From Medicago truncatula (taxonomy: Eukaryota; Streptophyta; Magnoliopsida; Fabales; Fabaceae), in the NCBI RefSeq assembly GCF_003473485.1, contig NC_053042.1, forward strand, positions 31,834,762-31,898,761: DNA of 64,000 nt, given 5' to 3'. This document shows positions 2,955 to 45,898 of this stretch, piece by piece. The position numbers were made by a program, and so were the translations under genes. Below the pieces are notes generated by a model. The model searched no databases. It was not told the origin of the DNA and worked only from the letters and a program-made list of their open reading frames with translations. Numbering within the stretch: position 1 is the stretch's first letter; every line of letters starts with the position of its first letter.

Positions 2955-3930
2955 TAGTATTAGAAAATAACATGCCCATAAGTATGAGGCTTTAGGCAGT
3001 CACCCCGTCTTCTCCGTGTCTAGGGTCATCACTAGATGCCATAAACTATGCATTCTATTTTTCAAGATATGCTCCTCTCTCGTGAGAACAAATTTTGTAC
3101 AAAGTCATTAATACATGCTGCCTAGCTATAGTTTGGTTCATTCAACTGAACTTTCAACCTAGTGGTTTATTTCAGGAACATGATTCGATATATATAAATA
3201 TGGTTGTTAAAATTGGAATTTTGCTTCAGATCAAAAGGAAAGAGCAAAATCAAAATTTTTTACTCAACTACTTTTGTATAATTGATATAAGAAATTGTAT
3301 TATCGCAATCAAAATCGATGAATTTTACAAACATAAATAATGCAAAATATATATTATAAATCGTATATAGTCATAAATAACTCAGTTTAAAGTCACAAAA
3401 TACTTATACATAAATGACTAAACAAAATGTAAAACATCCTCCAAAACCCTTTAAAATCCTCCAATTTTGTATGAATTTCACAATTTTGACGCGATTTTAC
3501 TAGGATTTTGCTTATCTTGTGATTCTGCTATGAATTTGGGTTGTTGAAGGTAAATAAAATCGCAAAATCCTAGATTTCAGAATTTAAGTCGGGATTTTGA
3601 CAACCATGCATATAAGTGTTTTAAATCACAAACTACTTGCTAATCAATATTCGATCGCAGATTGCTTCATCCAATGTAAAGTCTTCGCTTAGTCCAAACA
3701 TACATTCCCTTTAACATAATATCTTTGTTGGTTTGTATTAATTGGTTAGCCAAGCATATCAATAAGTGTGACATATGTGATAGATATTTGAGTTTTTTAA
3801 ACATGCATGTAGTTAGAGATTTGATTCGTGATCAATATACAAAAAACATACTTCAGTGGTATACAAGTATACTTACTTCAGTTTACCAAACAAGAAAAAC
3901 ATATCACGATGCAGTAAGTGGGCATTGGAT
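2955..3930. other. Upstream flank of SAUR gene 1, no gene
   Basis: AT-rich spacer. From about 3110 it is related to 8385 onward and 24,130 onward (shared string ACTTTCAACC/ATTGTGATTCAT followed by an ACATGATTC motif), so it belongs to the repeated SAUR unit. The short open frames here share no protein features between the copies and are not credible genes. Confidence 0.5.
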
Positions 3931-4055
3931 ATAGCTATGGACAACAAATTCAAGGCCCTGCCTCTAAAGTATACGAAATTTTTGGCTAATGAGAGGGAAG
4001 TAATTGACCTATCGAATAATGGCAATGAATGCTGTATACAGAGGTAGACCCACCT
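3930..4055 (+). promoter_or_regulatory. Conserved SAUR upstream block, unit 1
   Basis: Contains GGACAACAAA (3939-3948) followed by GGCCCT, a GCTAATGAGAGGGAAGTAAT stretch and a W-box-like TTGACC at 4004-4009. The same order recurs before the other five SAUR genes. Its survival between diverged copies suggests a shared cis-regulatory module. The function is inferred. Confidence 0.6.
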
Positions 4056-4176
4056 GTACCGTATATTAACTGGCTATGTGTAACCTAGAGTTAAGAAATA
4101 TCGTGTTCTTGTTAATAAAACATAAAGAAAAATTTCTTTCAAAAAAATAAAAATAAATATCGTGTTCTCGCTCAGC

Positions 4177-4259: not shown

Positions 4260-4601
4260 ATGCTTAGTTCATTTGTTGAGAAGGTACAAAAGAGTTTATC
4301 AGTCTTTGTACCAAGAAAGCATGCATTGAGCTACTGGAGTGAAGATCATGCCACAACCACAGGTCACGAGCTTGCTGATGATGTTATGAAAGGTTACTTT
4401 GCTGTTCTTGCAAAGAAGGGTTTAGAAACTAGAAGATTTATTGTTGGGTTAGATTACCTAACTGATCCTGCTTTTTTGGGATTGCTTGATGATGCTTGGG
4501 AGGAGTATGGCTTCAGACAGAAGGGGACTCTTGTTGTTCCGTGTCGACCAATCGATTTACAGATCATTCTGGAGAAGAAGGCAGCACCAGCATCAAGATG
4601 A
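4260..4601 (+). CDS. SAUR: SAUR family auxin-responsive protein (gene 1)
   Basis: Intronless 113-residue protein with the Auxin_inducible (SAUR) domain over about residues 38-106. Seen directly: GYFAVLA near residue 43, RRFIVGLDYLTDPAFLGLLD, EEYGFRQKGTLVVPCRP, then LQIIL. The N-terminus (MLSSFVEKVQKSL, then VPRKHALSYW) matches genes 2 and 3. SAUR proteins are small, short-lived and auxin-induced; the family is known to inhibit PP2C.D phosphatases and so activate plasma-membrane proton pumps and cell expansion. Compared with genes 2 and 3 it has a short insertion (TGHEL) near residue 35 and a different C-terminal tail (KKAAPASR). The start is the only in-frame Met before the conserved N-terminus. 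The family call is very safe; the individual role is unknown. Confidence 0.95.
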   Translation: MLSSFVEKVQKSLSVFVPRKHALSYWSEDHATTTGHELADDVMKGYFAVLAKKGLETRRFIVGLDYLTDPAFLGLLDDAWEEYGFRQKGTLVVPCRPIDLQIILEKKAAPASR

Positions 4602-8390: not shown

Positions 8391-8973
8391 GCTTGGTGCA
8401 TTCACCCGAACTTTCAACATTGTGATTCATTTTCTCGAACATGATTCAAATCATCATTCAAAAAAAAGTTTTCAATTACAAATATCTTTGCTTAGTCCAA
8501 AATATCTTTGCTTCATTCAATCTATCAGAAGAAAGTCTTTGGTTAGTTCAAAATATCTGTGCCATGAAAGAGTTTTCAATCATACTATTTGGTAATCACT
8601 TTGTCCAAAATATCTTTGCCCTAGTTTGAAACATTCACATCAGCAAAATATCTTTATAGGTTTATATTAAATTGGTCAAACAAATATATCGATAAAGCCA
8701 TGTACAAGTAATAGATACTTGAATTCCTTAAGTATGTGGTTAGAGATTCAATTTCTGATCAATATTAAAAATAAAAAATAAAAAACATATACATTGAGGG
8801 ATGTCGATTTAAAAATATCTCATTTATCCGCTGAAATTAGTCTCTGCAATTATATACATGTATACTTTTTTGAATGGTTAACCTTTGATTGCAATTAGAG
8901 ATTTCCTTTATTGTTCATAAATTATACATAAATAGAAGCAAGCATGCAACAAACTGCACCGCTAACCAAACAA
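8391..8973. other. Upstream flank of SAUR gene 2, no gene
   Basis: AT-rich spacer related to the flanks near 3110 and 24,130. The motif AAAATATCTTTGC recurs irregularly between about 8479 and 8650. No credible gene. Confidence 0.5.
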
Positions 8974-9375
8974 AATAAGAGCTTTATGCCTAATGAGATG
9001 GATATATACGGGGACAACAAAATGTTGGCCCTCCATGCCCTCCCTTCTAATAAGAGCTTTATGCCTAATGAGATGGATATATACGGGGACAACAAATTGT
9101 TGGCCCTCCATGCCCTCCCTTCTAATAAGAGCTTTATGCCTAATGAGATGGATATATACGGGGACAACAAAATGTTGGCCCTCCATGCCCTCCCTTCTAA
9201 TAAGAGCTTTATGCCTAATGAGATGGATATATACGGGGACAACAAATTGTTGGCCCTCCATGCCCTCCCTTCTAATAAGAGCTTTATGCCTAATGAGATG
9301 GATATATACGGGGACAACAAATTCTTGGCCCTCCATGCCCTCCCTTCTAATAAGAGCTTTTTGCCTAATGAGATG
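8974..9375 (+). repeat. 75-bp tandem repeat, five copies plus a partial
   Basis: Starts of AATAAGAGCTTT lie at 8974, 9049, 9124, 9199, 9274 and 9349, an exact 75-base period. Each unit holds GGGGACAACAAA, TTGGCCCTCCATGCCCTCCC and CCTAATGAGATGG. A variant triplet after the CAACAAA core alternates between copies (types A, B, A, B, then C), which suggests a 150-bp dimer was copied. The array lies 222-623 bases before the SAUR gene 2 start and amplifies a block that is single in the other SAUR units. Because 75 is a multiple of three, several frames on both strands stay open; these are composition effects. Confidence 0.95.
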
Positions 9376-9440
9376 GAAGTAATTGACATATCATATAATG
9401 ACATTAATGAATGCAGTGTATAGGGCTAGACACACCAATA
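9376..9440 (+). promoter_or_regulatory. Conserved SAUR upstream block, unit 2 (3' part)
   Basis: Continues the conserved block after the tandem array: GGAAGTAATTGACATATCA, then a GAATGCAGTGTATAGGGCTAGA stretch like units 1, 3 and 4. The TTGACC of other units reads TTGACA here. Confidence 0.55.
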
Positions 9441-9484
9441 CAATACCGGATATTATGTAGCCATGTACTTGTTCTCAGTTAGCA

Positions 9485-9492
9485 TATAAATA
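9485..9492 (+). promoter_or_regulatory. TATA box of SAUR gene 2
   Basis: TATAAATA followed by GCCACACTCTA. It lies 112 bases before the ATG, with the same context as gene 3. Confidence 0.7.
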
Positions 9493-9596: not shown

Positions 9597-9917
9597 ATGC
9601 TTAGTTCTTTTGTTGGTAAAGTACAAAAGAGTTTATCACTCTTTGTACCGAGAAAGCATGCATTGAGCTACTGGAGTGAAGATCATGCCACAGCTGGGGT
9701 TGCCGATGATGTCATGAAAGGTTACTTTGCTGTTCTTGCAAGGAAGGGTGAGGAAACTAGAAGGTTTATTGTTGGATTAGATTACTTAACTGATCCTGCT
9801 TTTTTGGGATTGCTTGATGATGCTTCGGAGGAATATGGTTTCAGGCAGAAGGGAACTCTTGTTGTTCCATGTAGGCCGATAGAATTACAGAACATTTTAG
9901 ATGGTCGGAAAACATAG
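9597..9917 (+). CDS. SAUR: SAUR family auxin-responsive protein (gene 2)
   Basis: Intronless 106-residue SAUR protein. The Auxin_inducible domain spans about residues 35-102 (GYFAVLARKG, RRFIVGLDYLTDPAFLGLLD, EEYGFRQKGTLVVPCRP, LQNILDG). It differs from gene 3 at about eight positions, including Ser instead of Trp at residue 77 before EEYGF. The start is supported by the shared MLSSFVGK N-terminus. Expected to act in auxin-driven cell expansion like other SAURs. Its promoter is unusual: the 75-bp array sits just upstream, so its expression may differ from that of its near-identical sister genes; that is an inference. Confidence 0.95.
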   Translation: MLSSFVGKVQKSLSLFVPRKHALSYWSEDHATAGVADDVMKGYFAVLARKGEETRRFIVGLDYLTDPAFLGLLDDASEEYGFRQKGTLVVPCRPIELQNILDGRKT

Positions 9918-15510: not shown

Positions 15511-15714
15511 ACTTAAATTATTTAGGTATGTGGTTAGAGATTTGATTTATGATCAATATATGAAGAAAGAAAAATAAAACATATATATATATCGAAGGAT
15601 GTCAATTTAAAAATATCTCATTTTTCTCGTTAAATTAGTCTCTACAGTTATGCAAATGTATACTTTAGTTTACCAAAAATAAAAACATATAATCATAAAG
15701 TAAGAGAATTCGAT

Positions 15715-15835
15715 ATATCTATGGACAACAAATCCTTGGCCCTCCTTTCAAATAAGAGCTTTTAGGTTAAAGAGATGGAAGTAATAGACCTATCATATAG
15801 TGGCATAAATGAGTGCAGTGTACAGGGCTAGACCC
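15715..15835 (+). promoter_or_regulatory. Conserved SAUR upstream block, unit 3
   Basis: ATGGACAACAAATCCTTGGCC, then AATAAGAGCTTTTAGG, GAGATGGAAGTAAT and AGACCTATCATATA, ending with GTGTACAGGGCTAGACCCAC. It is a single copy of what is amplified fivefold in unit 2. Confidence 0.65.
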
Positions 15836-15857
15836 ACACGTATGTGTTCTCAATTAG

Positions 15858-15971: not shown

Positions 15972-16292
15972 ATGCTTAGTTCTTTTGTTGGTAAAGCACA
16001 AAAGAGTTTATCAGTCTTTGTACCCAGAAAGCATGCATTGAGCTACTGGAATGAAGATCATGCCACAACTGGGGTTGCCGATGATGTCATGAAAGGTTAC
16101 TTTGCTGTTCTTGCAAAGAAGGGTGTAGAAACTAGAAGGTTTATTGTTGGGTTAGATTACTTAACTGATCCTGCTTTTTTGGGATTGCTTGATGATGCTT
16201 GGGAGGAGTATGGTTTTAGACAGAAGGGAACTCTTGTTGTTCCGTGTCGGCCGATAGAATTACAGAATATTTTAGATGGTCGGAAAATATAG
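15972..16292 (+). CDS. SAUR: SAUR family auxin-responsive protein (gene 3)
   Basis: Intronless 106-residue SAUR protein, closest to gene 2. The Auxin_inducible domain spans about residues 35-102 with GYFAVLAKKG, RRFIVGLDYLTDPAFLGLLD, DAWEEYGFRQKGTLVVPCRP and LQNILDG. The start codon follows TTCAAG as in genes 1 and 2. The reading frame is complete and keeps every residue shared by the group. Role as for gene 1; its promoter has one copy of the conserved block, so it is the natural comparison for the repeat-bearing gene 2. Confidence 0.95.
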   Translation: MLSSFVGKAQKSLSVFVPRKHALSYWNEDHATTGVADDVMKGYFAVLAKKGVETRRFIVGLDYLTDPAFLGLLDDAWEEYGFRQKGTLVVPCRPIELQNILDGRKI

Positions 16293-25439: not shown

Positions 25440-25560
25440 TAAAGGACAACAAATTAGTGGCCCTTCCTTCAAATAACAACTTTTTTGTTAAAGGGATGGA
25501 ATTAATTGACCTATCATATAATGGCATAAATGAATGCAATGAATAGGGCTAGATCCACCA
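25440..25560 (+). promoter_or_regulatory. Conserved SAUR upstream block, unit 4
   Basis: AAAGGACAACAAATTAGTGGCC, then AATAACAACTTTTTTGTTAAAGG, GATGGAATTAATTGACCTAT and ATGCAATGAATAGGGCTAGA. It lies about 630-750 bases before the ATG, roughly twice as far as in the other units, because AT-rich sequence follows it. Confidence 0.6.
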
Positions 25561-26080
25561 ATACCATACGACTAAAAATTTGTACCCAAAAACATCTCAT
25601 TTTTAGGCCTTTTAAAAATGATCAAGTGGTGGACTCTTACTATTTCTAATAAAAAATTAATAAATTTTATATTAAGAAAATGGAAAACATGTATAACAGT
25701 TTATTAAAAATTACTAAAAATAATAAGATCAACCTTTAAACCAAATCCATATTAGATGTATTTTTCTTGTCATGCTAATTATTATCTTATTTCATATATT
25801 TCTCTTTTCACAGTCAATAACACTGATAATTTTGACAAAAAGAAATAATAATTAATACTACTTTAAGAGATTATGGCAATACTTGGCCAGAATTAATAAT
25901 TTAATTAAGGATTATGATCATGGAGCATTACACGGAAATCTTCCTTCCTATGTGATTAATTTTGATCTTATCACCATGGTCTAACATATGATTGAAAAGT
26001 TTGGCAATACCTAATCGCAAGTGGCAAGAAAATTTCCCGTGTTTGATTATTTTCCTTCGCATACATGCATGATATCTTTG

Positions 26081-26088
26081 TATAAATA
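26081..26088 (+). promoter_or_regulatory. TATA box of SAUR gene 4
   Basis: TATAAATA, 109 bases before the ATG and the strongest TATA match in this flank. Confidence 0.65.
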
Positions 26089-26189
26089 AATATATTGAAC
26101 TCTACATTAACATGCCCCATCCTCAAAATAAACTATTTACACAAATAAAATTAAGCTTTCAAGTTCACTAAAAATTTCACTACTTAAAG

Positions 26190-26498
26190 ATGCTTAGATC
26201 CTTCGTTAGAAAAATACAAAAGGGACTCACACAAACTGTTCAAAAAAGCCACTTGAATGAAGATGTTAGAGAAGGATATTTTGCAGTGGTTGCAATCAAA
26301 GATGGAGAAATGAAAAGGTTTATGATTGGGTTAGAGTATTTGAGTGATCCTGCATTTTTGGGATTACTTGATCAAGCTAGGGAAGAGTATGGTTTTAGAC
26401 AGCAAGGAATTCTTGCAGTCCCTTGTGGGCCTCAAGAATTACAAAACATTCTAGATAGCTTAAACCAGAAGAGCATCAAATGGTGCAGGAGTAATTAG
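26190..26498 (+). CDS. SAUR: SAUR family auxin-responsive protein (gene 4)
   Basis: Intronless 102-residue SAUR protein of the second group. The Auxin_inducible domain spans about residues 25-91: EDVREGYFAVVAIKDGE, KRFMIGLEYLSDPAFLGLLD, EEYGFRQQGILAVPCGP, LQNILD. It shares KDGE and GLEYLSDP with genes 5 and 6 but keeps AFLGLLD as in genes 1-3, so it looks intermediate. It lacks the KRHDFSEE segment of genes 5/6 and has a longer tail (SLNQKSIKWCRSN). Complete frame. Expected role: auxin-induced growth regulator; membrane or phosphatase partners cannot be read from sequence. Confidence 0.95.
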   Translation: MLRSFVRKIQKGLTQTVQKSHLNEDVREGYFAVVAIKDGEMKRFMIGLEYLSDPAFLGLLDQAREEYGFRQQGILAVPCGPQELQNILDSLNQKSIKWCRSN

Positions 26499-27321: not shown

Positions 27322-28949
27322 TGTGCTCGTGATTTTCGGATATCAAACCATTAATTGATTTGAATCGTCAATCTTTGAACTCTCGATTTTTATTCGTGGG
27401 AAGGGGAAAAAATGAGTAAAAACCCTTATCGAGACTTTGGATTCGGGGGTTGGTTACGCGAAGGGAAGGTGCTAGCACCCTAAGCGTCTACGGTATTCCG
27501 TAGGAACCTCTTACCTAAATTATCTTGTGCTAAATTCATTGCTTATTTGAAAATTATTACCTAAAAGTCTAAGTGAAAGAATGGAGGGAGAAGAAGTATG
27601 TTTTTTGTTATTTTTATTTGATTTGGAAGGATAAAAATCCCATGCCTACATACCCTTAAAGAAAAGGAATCAAAACCAATGTAGTTCACCTAAAAAGTTT
27701 CTTTTTGGTGGGTTAGGTTGATTTTAAGATTTTTTGAAAATGGGTTTTTAGAAGAGAAAGAGGCCTCAAGGCATGAGATAAAATAAGGTGAGGTTGGTCG
27801 AATTTTAATTACAAAGAAATCAAGTCTATTATGAATATTAATTCAATTAAGCATTTGATTAAGAAAAATAAAAGAAAAAGCAACTTGGGTTACAAGTCAA
27901 GGTTTATTAAGAAAATATTTTTGGAGTTTTGCATGTTTTTGTTGTTTTTGAATAATAAATGAAAATTAAACTAACAGAGCAATAAAAATAAAAGCGCGTG
28001 GATTTTTGTAGTGACGTTGGATCACCACAAAATCCCTAATCTAATTTTTTTGCATTTTTTGGATATATCTAAGGCGGTAAGGAAATAAAAGGACACACAC
28101 ACCCACACACTTTTCTCATTTATATTTACATTGGACCTAAATACATTCTAATTGCTGGAAAATAAATAACAATAATTAAAATGCTAAATAGAAATAAAAT
28201 AAAATGTAAAAATGCTAAAAAGAAATAAAAATGCAAGAAAATAAAAGAAATGGACTACCGAAGGGACAAAATTCCGAAGGGACTTATTCCGAAGGGACTA
28301 ATTCTGAAGGGACAGAAAAAAAAAAAAAAAAAAAAAAAAAAACGGGAGAAGAAAAGAATAGCTCGTTAACACAAGCTAAATAGGGAGAAGAGAGAAAAGT
28401 TCTTTGACAACTCAAGAGAACTTTTTGGTGTGTGAAATTGTGTGGAATGAGGGCTCTATTTATAGGTGAGGAGGTTGATGAAAAAAGGAAAAATGGTTTA
28501 ATAGAAATGATGGACAATTATGGTGAATTTTGAAAAAGGAATGTTAAAGTTGACACTTGACTTGAAATTTTTTTTAGACCTTGTACATTTTATTTTGGAC
28601 CTATTGACACTTTGTTTTTTTTTTTTGACACTAATTAATTAAAAAGAAATAAAATAAATCTAATACGAAATAAAATAAAACAAATTAAACTAAATCATGT
28701 AAAGAAAAATAAAATTAAAAGATGGAAAATAAAAATTATTAAATATAAAAAAAGTAACTAATCTTAAAATTAAAATTAATAAAAGAAAATAAAAAGAGAA
28801 AAGAGGGTCCGACTCGGAATAAAAAATGAGGTACTTCAAAGTAACCTCTTTGCCAAAATTTCGTCTGAAACGACGAAAATTCCCGACTTTAAAAATACGA
28901 ATAAAATGGGTAAGAATAGAGGAAAGTGGTCAAAATTTGGGGTATGACA
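27322..28949 (-). repeat. 3' LTR of the Tat/Ogre-type element
   Basis: 1628 bp; on the minus strand it begins TGTCATACCCC and ends GAGCACA. It contains an A-rich run (about 28,317-28,342 on +) and short AATAAAA-rich stretches. Nearly identical to the other LTR. Confidence 0.95.
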
Positions 28950-29189: not shown

Positions 29190-29765
29190 TTATTACCGTT
29201 ACTGTGGTAAAGACGAACATACGACACATGAGTATCGTCACTTACCTTTACTGAGGTAAAGACCGACATACGGAAGGAAATACTGTCAATTACCTCAACT
29301 CGGATAACGACCAACATACGAAAAGGAAATACCGTCAGTTACCTCAACTCGGATAACGACCAACATTCAAAAAGGAAATACCGTCAGTTACCTCGACTCG
29401 GATAACGACCAACATTCAAAAAGGAAATACCGTCAGTTACCTCGACTCGGATAACGACCAACATACGGAAAGGAAATACCGTCAGTTACCTCAACTCGGA
29501 TAACGACCAACATTCAAAAAGGAAATACCGTCTGTTACCTCGACTCGGATAACGACCAATATACGGAAAGGAAATACCGTCAGTTACCTCGACTCGGATA
29601 ACGACCAATATACGGAAAGGAAATACCGTCAGTTACCTCAACACGGGTAACGACCGATATACAAAAAGGAGATACCGTCAGTTATCTCAACACCGATAAC
29701 GACCAACTTACGAAAAGGAAATACCGTCAGTTACCTCAACACGGATAACGACCAACATAGATAAA
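29190..29765. repeat. 49-bp tandem array inside the LTR element
   Basis: About eleven copies of a 49-base unit built on GGAAATACCGTCAGTTACC and CGGATAACGACCAACAT. Outer copies at both ends are more diverged. Non-coding, and part of the long spacer between gag and the 3' LTR. Confidence 0.9.
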
Positions 29766-30099: not shown

Positions 30100-31600
30100 C
30101 ACTCGAGAATCTTCCACGGGGATACCAATACAGGAGGTGAGTCAAACACTGACGGGGTAAAGCCCTCCAAACAAAACATTAGTGGGGTAAAGCTCAAAAA
30201 CAAACCCCTGATAGGAGAACAAACCAATAATCAAACTAATGATGGAGGCACAACCCAATAATCAAACCAATGATATGGATACAACCCAATAATCAAACTG
30301 CTGATGGGGATACGACCCAAATCCAAACCAACTTACGGGGTAAAAACCCATATTCAAACCAACCGGTGGGGTAAGGCCCTAAGAAACAAACACTGGAGGG
30401 GTAACAACTCCACAATCAAAAACAACGGCAGGGTCACGCCTTATAACCATACCACTGAAGAGGTAACAAAACGTTAATCCAACCACTGAACGGGTAACTG
30501 CCCACTAATCATACCGCTAAAGGGGTAACGGCCCATCAATCATATCGTCGAAGAGGTAACAAAGGTAACAAACCATTTACTCAACCACTGAAGGGGTAAC
30601 TGCCCACTAATCAAAACCAACGGCGGGGTCACGCCTTATAACCATACCATTGAAGAGGTAACAAAATTTGATTCAACCACTGAAGGGGTAACTTCCCACT
30701 AATCATACCGCTAAAGGGGTAACGGCCCATCAATCATATCGTCGAAGAGGTAACAAAGGTAACAACCATTTACTCAACCATTGAAGGGGTAACTGCCCAC
30801 TAATCAAAACCAACGGTGGGGTCTCGCCTTATAACCATACCATTGAAGAGGTAACAAAATTCGACTCAACCACTGAAGGGGTAACTGCCCACTAATCGTA
30901 CCGCTAAAGGGGTAACGGCCCATCAATCATATCGTCGAAGAGGTAACAAAGGTAACAAACCATTTACTCAACCACTGAAGGGGTAACTGCCCACTAATCA
31001 AAACCAACGGCGGGGTCACGCCTTATAACCATACCATTGAAGAGGTAAAAAAATTTGACTCAACCACTGAAGGGGTAACTGCCCACTAATCATACCGCTA
31101 AAGGGGTAACGGCCCATCAATCATATCGTCGAAGAGGTAACAAAGGTAACAACCATTTACTCAACCATTGAAGGGGTAACTACCCACTAATCAAAACCAA
31201 CGGTGGGGTCACGCCTTATAACCATACCATTGAAGAGGTAACAAAATTTGATTCAACCACTGAAGGGGTAACTGCCCACTAATCATACCGCTAAAGGGGT
31301 AACGGCCCCTCAATCATACCGCTGAAGAGGTAACAAAACTTGATTCAACCACTGAAGAGGTAACAAATCATTAATCATACCACAAAGGGGTAATCGCCCA
31401 CTAGTCAAACCACTAAAGGGGTAATAAACCATTAATCCAACCACTGAAGAGATAACAAACCATTAATCAAACCACAGAAGGGGTAACTGCCCACTAATCA
31501 AACCACTAATGGGGATACGACCCATATCCAAACCACTGATGGGGATACGACCCAATAAACAAAGCACTGATGGGATACGACCCGATATAATGTCTCAATT
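30100..31600. repeat. Higher-order tandem array, about 193-bp period
   Basis: Short units of about 24-32 bases (ACTGAAGGGGTAACTGCCCA and variants) are nested in a larger unit. The marker ACCAACGG(C/T)GGGGTC recurs with its CGG at 30,621, 30,814, 31,008 and 31,201, a spacing of 193-194 bases. Open frames inside it are artefacts of repetition. Confidence 0.9.
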
Positions 31601-33963: not shown

Positions 33964-34860
33964 TTAGAAGCGTAAGACCTTATCTTGGATTAACTTCTGA
34001 ACTTCATTCCTAAAAACAAAACAACGCTCAATATCATGACCAGGTGCCCCTTGATGGAAGACACAAGAGAGGTCGGGCCTATACCCAGCTGGAAATTTCT
34101 TAGGCATACAAGGAGGTGGTCTGGTCTGGACAAGCTTCCTCCTAAGCAAATCGGGAAACAACACTGCATATTTCAAGGGGATCGGATCAAATTGTGGTTG
34201 TCTCGAAGCTTGTTGTCGAGGCTGTTGTTGATATTTCTGAAATTGGGATTGATAACCTGGATCTTGAACAACATTGGTGATGGGCCTAAGGGTGGCAACA
34301 GAGTGAGAAGACATATGTTGTTGTTGAAGTAGCACTTTTATATCAGGGTCATCGAAGGACCAGACATTATTTTCAATCAACTTCTGAACTTCTTCCTTCA
34401 AAGGATAGCACTGCTCAGTGTCATGACCTGGCGCCCCTTGATGGAATACACAGTTGAGGTCAGGGCGATACCAAGGTGGCAGCGGATTCTGCACCCGAGG
34501 AGGTGGCAGGGTTTGAACAAGGTTCGTCTTAAGCAAAATGGGAAGCAAATCCGCATATTTCACAGGAATTGGGTCACACTGAGATGCTTTTCGGACCTGA
34601 TTTTGAGGAATAAGCGGCTGAGAACCCTGTTGTCGAGGCCGTTTCATGCATGTTGGCTGACATAGTAGCTGAGGCCTTTGCTGAACAAGCGGTGGATCCT
34701 TTGCAGCCATCAATGAAGATACTAGGCTAGTTAACTTCTCTACCTCAGCCCGAAGTGTTGTTACCTCTCCACGAAGCTCGTGGACCTCTTGCTCAAGTCG
34801 ATCCATTTTTCCTGTTTGCACGAGTGTCTGCATATGCGAGCCGAACTTAGATGAAGACAT
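33964..34860 (-). CDS. Gag-like protein of the Tat/Ogre-type element
   Basis: A single open frame of 298 codons on the minus strand, downstream of the primer site. An N-terminal coiled-coil (about residues 18-50, LEQEVHELRGEVTTLRAEVE) is followed by two related modules, each with CVFHQGAPGHD...C (about residues 137-151 and 267-281) and an EVQKLI motif. This Cys/His pattern is typical of gag proteins of Tat/Ogre-lineage elements. It looks whole as an open frame, but is shorter than full gag proteins of autonomous relatives. It is a mobile-element gene, not a host gene. Confidence 0.8.
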   Translation of the reverse strand: MSSSKFGSHMQTLVQTGKMDRLEQEVHELRGEVTTLRAEVEKLTSLVSSLMAAKDPPLVQQRPQLLCQPTCMKRPRQQGSQPLIPQNQVRKASQCDPIPVKYADLLPILLKTNLVQTLPPPRVQNPLPPWYRPDLNCVFHQGAPGHDTEQCYPLKEEVQKLIENNVWSFDDPDIKVLLQQQHMSSHSVATLRPITNVVQDPGYQSQFQKYQQQPRQQASRQPQFDPIPLKYAVLFPDLLRRKLVQTRPPPCMPKKFPAGYRPDLSCVFHQGAPGHDIERCFVFRNEVQKLIQDKVLRF

Positions 34861-35880: not shown

Positions 35881-36859
35881 TGTGCTCGTGATTTTCGGAT
35901 ATCAAACCATTAATTGATTTGAATCGTCAATCTTTGAGCTCTCGATTTTTATTCGTGGGAAGGGGAAAAAATGAGTAAAAACCCTTATCGAGACTTTGGA
36001 TTCGGGGGTTGGTTACGCGAAGGGAAGGTGCTAGCACCCTAAGCGTCTACGGTATTCCGTAGGAACCTCTTACCTAAATTATCTTGTGCTAAATTCATTG
36101 CTTATTTGAAAATTATTACCTAAAAGTCTAAGTGAAAGAATGGAGGGAGAAGAAGTATGTTTTTTGTTATTTTTATTTGATTTGGAAGGATAAAAATTCC
36201 ATGCCTACATACCCTTAAAGAAAAGGAATCAAAACCAATGTAGTTCACCTAAAAAGTTTCTTTTTGGTGGGTTAGGTTGATTTTAAGATTTTTTGAAAAT
36301 GGGTTTTTAGAAGAGAAAGAGGCCTCAAGGCATGAGATAAAATAAGGTGAGGTTGGTCGAATTTTAATTACAAAGAAATCAAGTCTATTATGAATATTAA
36401 TTCAATTAAGCATTTGATTAAGAAAAATAAAAGAAAAAGCAACTTGGGTTACAAGTCAAGGTTTATTAAGAAAATATTTTTGGAGTTTTGCATGTTTTTG
36501 TTGTTTTTGAATAATAAATGAAAATTAAACTAACAGAGCAATAAAAATAAAAGCGCGTGGATTTTTGTAGTGACGTTGGATCACCACAAAATCCCTAATC
36601 TAATTTTTTTGCATTTTTTGGATATATCTAAGGCGGTAAGGAAATAAAAGGACACACACACCCACACACTTTTCTCATTTATATTTACATTGGACCTAAA
36701 TACATTCTAATTGCTGGAAAATAAATAACAATAATTAAAATGCTAAATAGAAATAAAATAAAATGTAAAAATGCTAAAAAGAAATAAAAATGCAAGAAAA
36801 TAAAAGAAATTGACTACCGAAGGGACAAAATTCCGAAGGGACTAATTCCGAAGGGACAG

Positions 36860-36897
<38 letters not shown>

Positions 36898-45304: not shown

Positions 45305-45435
45305 AGGGAGTAGGGACAACAAAATCTTGCCATGCCTCTAAAGATACAAGCAGCTTAGCGCGTATGGAAGGAAAAAATTGACTTATCAATCAATAATTTA
45401 GATAACAATGTCAATGAATTCCATATTGCCATGTC
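45305..45435 (+). promoter_or_regulatory. Conserved SAUR upstream block, unit 6
   Basis: GTAGGGACAACAAAATCTTGCC and AAATTGACTTATCAATCA. Same order as the other units. Confidence 0.5.
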
Positions 45436-45496
45436 TATGGCTTCTACAACCACACGGTAACTACACATTCATAATTAATCAACAGATTTTTCTCAT

Positions 45497-45595: not shown

Positions 45596-45898
45596 ATGGT
45601 TCTTTCTTTTGTTGGGAAGATACAAAAGGGTATTTCACACTTTGTACACAAAAGACATGATTTCAGTGAAGAGTTGGTACCAGAAGATGTTAGGGAAGGA
45701 TACTTTGCTGTCGTTGCAATGAAAGATGGAGAAACCAAAAAGTTTATTATTGGGTTGGAGTACTTAAGTGATCCTGAGTTTTTGGGATTACTAGGTCAAG
45801 CACAGGAAGAGTATGGTTTCATACAGGAAGGAGCTATTGCTGTCCCTTGTAGGCCTCAAGAATTGCAGAACATTTTAGATGGTCAGAGATTACTATGA
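45596..45898 (+). CDS. SAUR: SAUR family auxin-responsive protein (gene 6)
   Basis: Intronless 100-residue SAUR protein. The open frame extends upstream to 45,515, but the Met at 45,596 aligns with the start of gene 5 and follows a matching leader, so the 27 extra codons are taken as 5' UTR. Auxin_inducible domain: EDVREGYFAVVAMKDGE, KKFIIGLEYLSDPEFLGLLG, EEYGFIQEGAIAVPCRP, LQNILDG. It differs from gene 5 at about eight positions plus two C-terminal Leu residues. The Asp of LGLLD seen in the other five genes is Gly here. Confidence 0.95.
   Translation: MVLSFVGKIQKGISHFVHKRHDFSEELVPEDVREGYFAVVAMKDGETKKFIIGLEYLSDPEFLGLLGQAQEEYGFIQEGAIAVPCRPQELQNILDGQRLL

Follow-up and report, generated by a model that had tools for sequence, protein, structure and literature searches.

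Why does one member of a tandem SAUR cluster in Medicago truncatula carry a short tandem array directly upstream, and would that array affect how the gene is expressed? The window, by which we mean the whole 64,000-nucleotide stretch analysed (C1:31834762-31898761), contains six SAUR genes, at positions 4260, 9597, 15972, 26190, 42411 and 45596 (genes 1 to 6), and a seventh (gene 0) is found at C1:31817021, about 18 kb to the left of the window. Gene 2 (9597..9917, + strand), the one with the array, encodes a protein of 106 amino acids and is assigned to the SAUR family by its Auxin_inducible domain (Pfam PF02519, 60.3 bits against a cut-off of 26.3). It is intact, with a dN/dS of 0.23 relative to its sister, gene 3. 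A preliminary description of this DNA called the coding sequences of the two genes almost identical, which overstates their similarity: they match at 94.7% of nucleotides, 7 of 105 aligned residues differ, and dS is 0.142, the smallest value among 21 pairs. In the stretch DDAWEEYGF, the Trp found in genes 0, 1 and 3 is replaced by Ser in gene 2.

The array spans 8974..9377 on the + strand (TRF: period 75, 5.4 copies, 98% matches, score 780) and consists of five full units followed by a partial sixth of 29 bp. The copies run head-to-tail and the unit falls in the 10-100 bp range, as in a minisatellite. Variation among the five full units is confined to positions 49 and 51 and gives the order A-B-A-B-C, all on the + strand: unit 1 (8974..9048) and unit 3 (9124..9198) have the same type A sequence, unit 2 (9049..9123) and unit 4 (9199..9273) the same type B sequence, and unit 5 (9274..9348, type C) differs from units 2 and 4 at position 51. 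The partial unit (9349..9377, + strand) has a T at a site where 5 of 5 full units carry A, and the end of the array is separated from the ATG of gene 2 (9597) by 220 bp.

Comparison with the other genes of the cluster shows what the unit is. A block of about 130 bp lies in the proximal promoter, and the repeated segment is its 5′ half, from GATATAT..GGACAACAAA through GAGATGG; this half-block is cleanly amplified, present five times before gene 2 and once before the sister genes. Everything downstream is single and outside the repetition: the 3′ half of the block, which follows GAGATGG and into which the partial unit continues (9378..9446, + strand), the likely TATA box of gene 2 (TATAAAT, 9485..9491, + strand, 112 bp before the ATG) and the gene itself. 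The preliminary description was thus right that the array is not random satellite DNA, since its source is a conserved SAUR promoter block, and that it sits just upstream of gene 2, in the proximal promoter, as a new feature compared with the sister gene; its fivefold amplification of a promoter block holds for the five full tandem units, but for the 5′ half only and not for the whole block.

Single copies of the block are found, all on the + strand, before gene 1 (4260-4601; block 3926..4060, unit-homologous part 3926-3998), before gene 3 (15972-16292; block 15712..15840, unit-homologous part 15712-15779) and at 25442..25569 (the 25444 copy), and a diverged one lies before gene 6 (45596-45898; block 45311..45441, nhmmer 1.2e-5 and 8.1e-6). 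Gene 0, outside the window, also has the block once. A 9-bp near-duplication inside the unit, GCCCTCCAT/GCCCTCCCT, is lacking in the gene 3 and 25444 copies. It had been proposed that the block occurs once before genes 1, 3 and 4, and single copies are indeed there, but the one before gene 4 (26190-26498) starts 746 bp ahead of that gene's ATG; of the words quoted for the block, AATAAGAGCTTT is exact in genes 2 and 3 only and is substituted in gene 1 and the 25444 copy. The 25444 block is parted from gene 4 by dispersed-repeat sequence, which adjoins it, as parts of positions 39-271 in the query 25570-26100 have 39 other scored genome matches besides self, of 56 candidates. A SAUR gene of the gene 1-3 type may have been lost here, leaving this block as its relic promoter. 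The protein of gene 4 groups with those of genes 5 and 6 (about 70%) and not with those of genes 1-3 (52-56%).

When the unit was aligned to the blocks of genes 0, 1, 3 and 6 and to the 25444 copy, each alignment scored above all 500 mononucleotide shuffles; the alignment to the gene 5 region did not beat all 500. A profile of the whole block, built from genes 0, 1, 2 and 3 and the 25444 copy, gives E-values of 1e-40 to 2e-32 for these five sources, which match it by construction, and 8e-6 for gene 6; at gene 5 its E-value of 0.41 is not significant. Pairwise identity among genes 0, 1, 2 (array removed) and 3 averages 0.75 for the repeated half, 0.80 for the 3′ half and 0.69 between the block and the ATG, and drops to 0.42 over the preceding 300 bases, so the block is part of a conserved stretch of ~250 bp and not an isolated island. 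Shared descent explains part of this promoter conservation, genes 0 to 3 being paralogues of modest age.

Searches of the genome (429.9 Mb, 42 contigs) place unit and block in this cluster: 6 of 6 matches to the unit are the array itself, and the six matches to the gene 3 block fall at five places within the SAUR cluster at C1:31.816-31.860 Mb. These counts are lower bounds, since the search skips very common words, and the gene 3 block search missed the diverged gene 6 copy, so equally diverged copies elsewhere could escape it. A genome scan with PF02519 scored 150 of 159 candidates, and over the upstream regions of 145 of these 150 SAUR matches the block profile is significant solely at genes 0-4 and, weakly, at gene 6. 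The other five are two full-length matches, at C4:35397259 and at C3:54316284 (the region of the latter was scanned for the block only), and three fragments, at C7:55794262, C4:35572330 and C5:1773036. For matches outside the cluster, the upstream span is measured from the domain match and not from the ATG, and the 145 regions are not independent, because neighbouring genes share intergenic DNA. The block is therefore not a general SAUR element, the profile being significant in this cluster only, nor is the array transposon or dispersed satellite DNA, because genome-wide the block is found in one SAUR cluster alone; within the sensitivity of the search, the block is not transposon sequence spread away from SAUR genes, a possibility that had been raised for it at the outset. 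The shorter pattern GGACARCAAAN{0,12}TTGBCM has 51 genome matches (8 in the cluster, 43 elsewhere) against 5 for a reversed control.

One series of simple repeats appears at two places in the window, 28163-28342 and 36722-36894, about 8.5 kb apart, possibly as the long terminal repeats of a retrotransposon that would enclose a 298-aa open reading frame (33964-34860). Larger tandem arrays lie between them, at 29236-29759 (49 bp x 10.7) and 30387-31337 (193 bp x 4.9).

The few variable sites of the array bear on its history. At the site of position 51, genes 1, 3 and 6 share a C with unit 5, which makes C the likely ancestral state, against G in units 1-4 and A in the 25444 copy; the T of the partial unit, where full units have A, is common to genes 0, 1 and 3 and the 25444 copy. 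The gene-proximal copies are thus the most ancestral in state, and this handful of sites suggests growth of the array in the direction away from the gene. The identity of units 1 and 3 and of units 2 and 4 suggests that the final step was duplication of a 150-bp segment of two units. At the joint between units, GAGATGGA is joined to TATATAC..GGGACAAC, and gene 3 reads GAGATGGAAG and CGATATATC..GGACAAC at the matching places; by this comparison the joint shares about two bases, and would be a microhomology joint. On its left side the array opens in the middle of a unit, and the genome search gave no second match for the sequence before it (8865-8973). Full units differ on average at 1.0 of 75 positions (ten pairs), compared with the dS of 0.142 between genes 2 and 3, and so the array is either younger than the gene 2/gene 3 duplication or has been homogenised since. 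We infer that the promoter segment was duplicated after the two genes split.

Each unit has one TGTC core, on the reverse strand, which reads TGTCCC, an auxin-response-type hexamer (9011..9016, − strand, recurring at 9086, 9161, 9236 and 9311). The unit contains both TGTCCC and GTCCCC, for which excerpts of PMC5853796 describe enrichment in ARF-bound regions and upstream of genes induced early by auxin. As TGTCNN hexamers of the TGTCCC variant, the five reverse-strand copies qualify as auxin response elements by sequence match alone; the canonical element TGTCTC is absent from the array and from the gene 2 proximal promoter. Gene 2 has five TGTCCC and gene 3 has none within 700 bp upstream. 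The equivalent site of the block reads TGTCCC in genes 0 and 6, TGTCCA in genes 1 and 3, and TGTCCT in gene 5 and the 25444 copy; given the TGTCCA of genes 1 and 3, the CC ending is not conserved. The position of the core is more constant: a reverse-strand TGTC at the GGACA position is found at -250 to -322 in genes 0, 1, 2 (proximal copy), 3, 5 and 6, gene 5 being counted although its block is itself not significant, and at about -746 in gene 4.

Across the 145 SAUR upstream regions, TGTCCC is absent from 109 and occurs once in 33, and counts of two, three and five are each reached by a single region, the five of gene 2 being the highest. In the other 144 regions, a random 75-mer includes TGTCCC at 2.2% of positions, a figure limited by the choice of this hexamer after the fact, and a TGTC core at 43%; a bare core would therefore mean little. 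In total TGTC cores gene 2 is no outlier and stands outside the top six of the 145 regions, the highest of which (C3:54318446-54319310) has 17. Nor do the sites of the array form pairs of the known kind: with one core per unit the cores are 75 bp apart, a spacing that fits neither of the ARF dimer arrangements named in the excerpted text of PMC10690724 (DR5 and IR7/8).

Amplified promoter segments of this sort are known from other plants. In apple, the R6 promoter of MYB10 has a minisatellite of five direct 23-bp repeats, as given in parts of PMC8594686 and PMC5671642: a segment with a transcription factor site, which the ordinary promoter has once, occurs as tandem copies before one gene. The same arrangement is found here: a unit that is single in the relatives, which are paralogues of one genome, has multiplied in one promoter. 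A difference is that MYB10 is described in these excerpts as binding its own repeats and activating itself, and the effect on expression was measured in apple. In grape VvmybA1, a 408-bp promoter duplication occurs in 2, 3 or 5 copies, according to sections of PMC7464560; these copies lie in direct tandem some hundreds of bases ahead of the ATG and are similar in number to those of gene 2, but the unit is 408 bp long, clonal variation is documented and repeat number correlates with expression. A third case, as far as the extracts of PMC5996158 describe it, is the 75-bp dual repeat of Phalaenopsis GDPS, which a deletion assay found to be needed for full promoter activity. It resembles the array of gene 2 in being a 75-bp tandem promoter unit within which no transposon was found, but it has two copies and a bZIP factor binds it; that both units measure 75 bp is presumably coincidental. 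These three systems are precedents for amplification of a promoter segment accompanying changed expression.

The array probably alters how strongly gene 2 is expressed, by analogy with apple and grape. Each unit would supply one candidate ARF-type site, the reverse-strand TGTCCC, together with its conserved neighbours, so that gene 2 would present five candidate sites against the single TGTCCA in the block of gene 3. The most likely consequence of the additional proximal sites would be stronger or more auxin-sensitive transcription of gene 2 than of its sister. The sites would act by additive ARF occupancy and not through paired-site geometry of the DR5 or IR7/8 kind. SAUR proteins are not known to be transcription factors or to bind DNA, and autoregulation of the MYB10 kind is not expected at gene 2. 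Taken together, a recent local tandem amplification and a raised dosage of ARF sites at gene 2 is the reading of the sequence that we favour, with a probability of roughly 0.48.

Close behind it ranks a neutral minisatellite, with silencing and spacing effects less likely. A neutral array would have arisen by slippage and unequal exchange, with its upstream copies idle and the proximal copy and the single 3′ half sufficient for promoter function. That just half of the block is repeated is consistent with such an origin, near-perfect copies require no selection, and there are other tandem arrays elsewhere in the window. Nor is the array unique among SAUR promoters: 10 of the 144 upstream regions besides that of gene 2 have a TRF row of period at least 20, which is one reason why the neutral explanation stands so near the favoured one. 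AT-rich examples are an array of 79 bp x 3.0 and one of 26 bp x 3.4 (regions L104 and L056), and arrays of this kind mean that proximity to a SAUR gene need not imply function. The former lies upstream of the SAUR gene at C6:36584965 (482-714 of its region, 94% matches), and its unit lacks TGTC. Set against this, the repeated stretch of gene 2 falls within a conserved proximal promoter and includes a positionally conserved site, and known plant amplifications of such kind raise expression. We therefore regard a neutral array as quite possible, if short of an even chance.

Tandem repeats in promoters can also cause silencing, as at maize b1 and Arabidopsis FWA. Were this the case here, the array would attract small RNAs and DNA methylation and would lower or destabilise the expression of gene 2. 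The intactness of gene 2 says little on this, since a dN/dS taken over the whole lineage is uninformative about the period after the array's origin. On the other side, the array is short, and its unit holds one CpG and zero CHG on the strand read, which makes silencing improbable.

A change in spacing is less probable still. The extra 300-odd bp could attenuate expression by displacing upstream elements, or the array could add more repressing than activating sites. Between about -375 and -550 of gene 3 the sequence is moderately conserved (0.43-0.59), and the gene 2 counterpart of this stretch (8703-8868) does sit upstream of the array. However, the adjoining 8865-8973 is without another genome match, and beyond 8868 has no BLAST match in the gene 3 flank; the spacing had therefore changed there as well.

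That the array encodes a repeat protein is hardly credible on ORF, Pfam and shuffle evidence: the unit, 25 codons long, lacks stop codons in four of its six frames, at least four being likewise open in 33 of 3000 mononucleotide-shuffled units, ORFs of 124-160 aa span the array, and 3 of 20 Pfam rows over the four frames (RlmN_N, HTH_36 and DUF2664) exceed the curated whole-protein cut-off, but both strands are open simultaneously, the forward frame, open in the unit, meets a TAG in the gene 3 homologue, the Pfam families are mutually unrelated with scores mostly summed over repeated short stretches, and DUF2664 alone of the 20 rows, on the reverse strand, has a self-sufficient stretch (E threshold 1), so that the four open frames are probably incidental.

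The favoured reading, that amplification raised the dosage of ARF sites at gene 2, can be extended: the array may be a natural ARF-site multimer like a synthetic reporter, its copy number varying among accessions and tuning the auxin sensitivity of one paralogue. We consider this extension rather unlikely from the sequence at hand. For a legume comparison, the soybean SAUR 15A promoter was reportedly dissected by Xu et al. in 1997 into auxin-response modules named DUE and NDE, and like that of gene 2 it is said to be a SAUR proximal promoter with TGTC-type elements. No published report of the present array was found in a literature search judged from titles-level results. Amplification of a promoter segment is itself already known; what is new here is the gene family and the type of site.

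SAUR genes form large tandem clusters with near-redundant proteins, which makes regulatory differences a likely route of divergence. If the array is a natural multimer, it would be a quick route to expression divergence of tandem SAUR genes with their proteins nearly unchanged. Genes 2 and 3, sisters set apart by copies of one conserved promoter segment that can be cleanly counted, offer a convenient natural test, within a native promoter, of whether auxin response depends on how many ARF-type sites there are.
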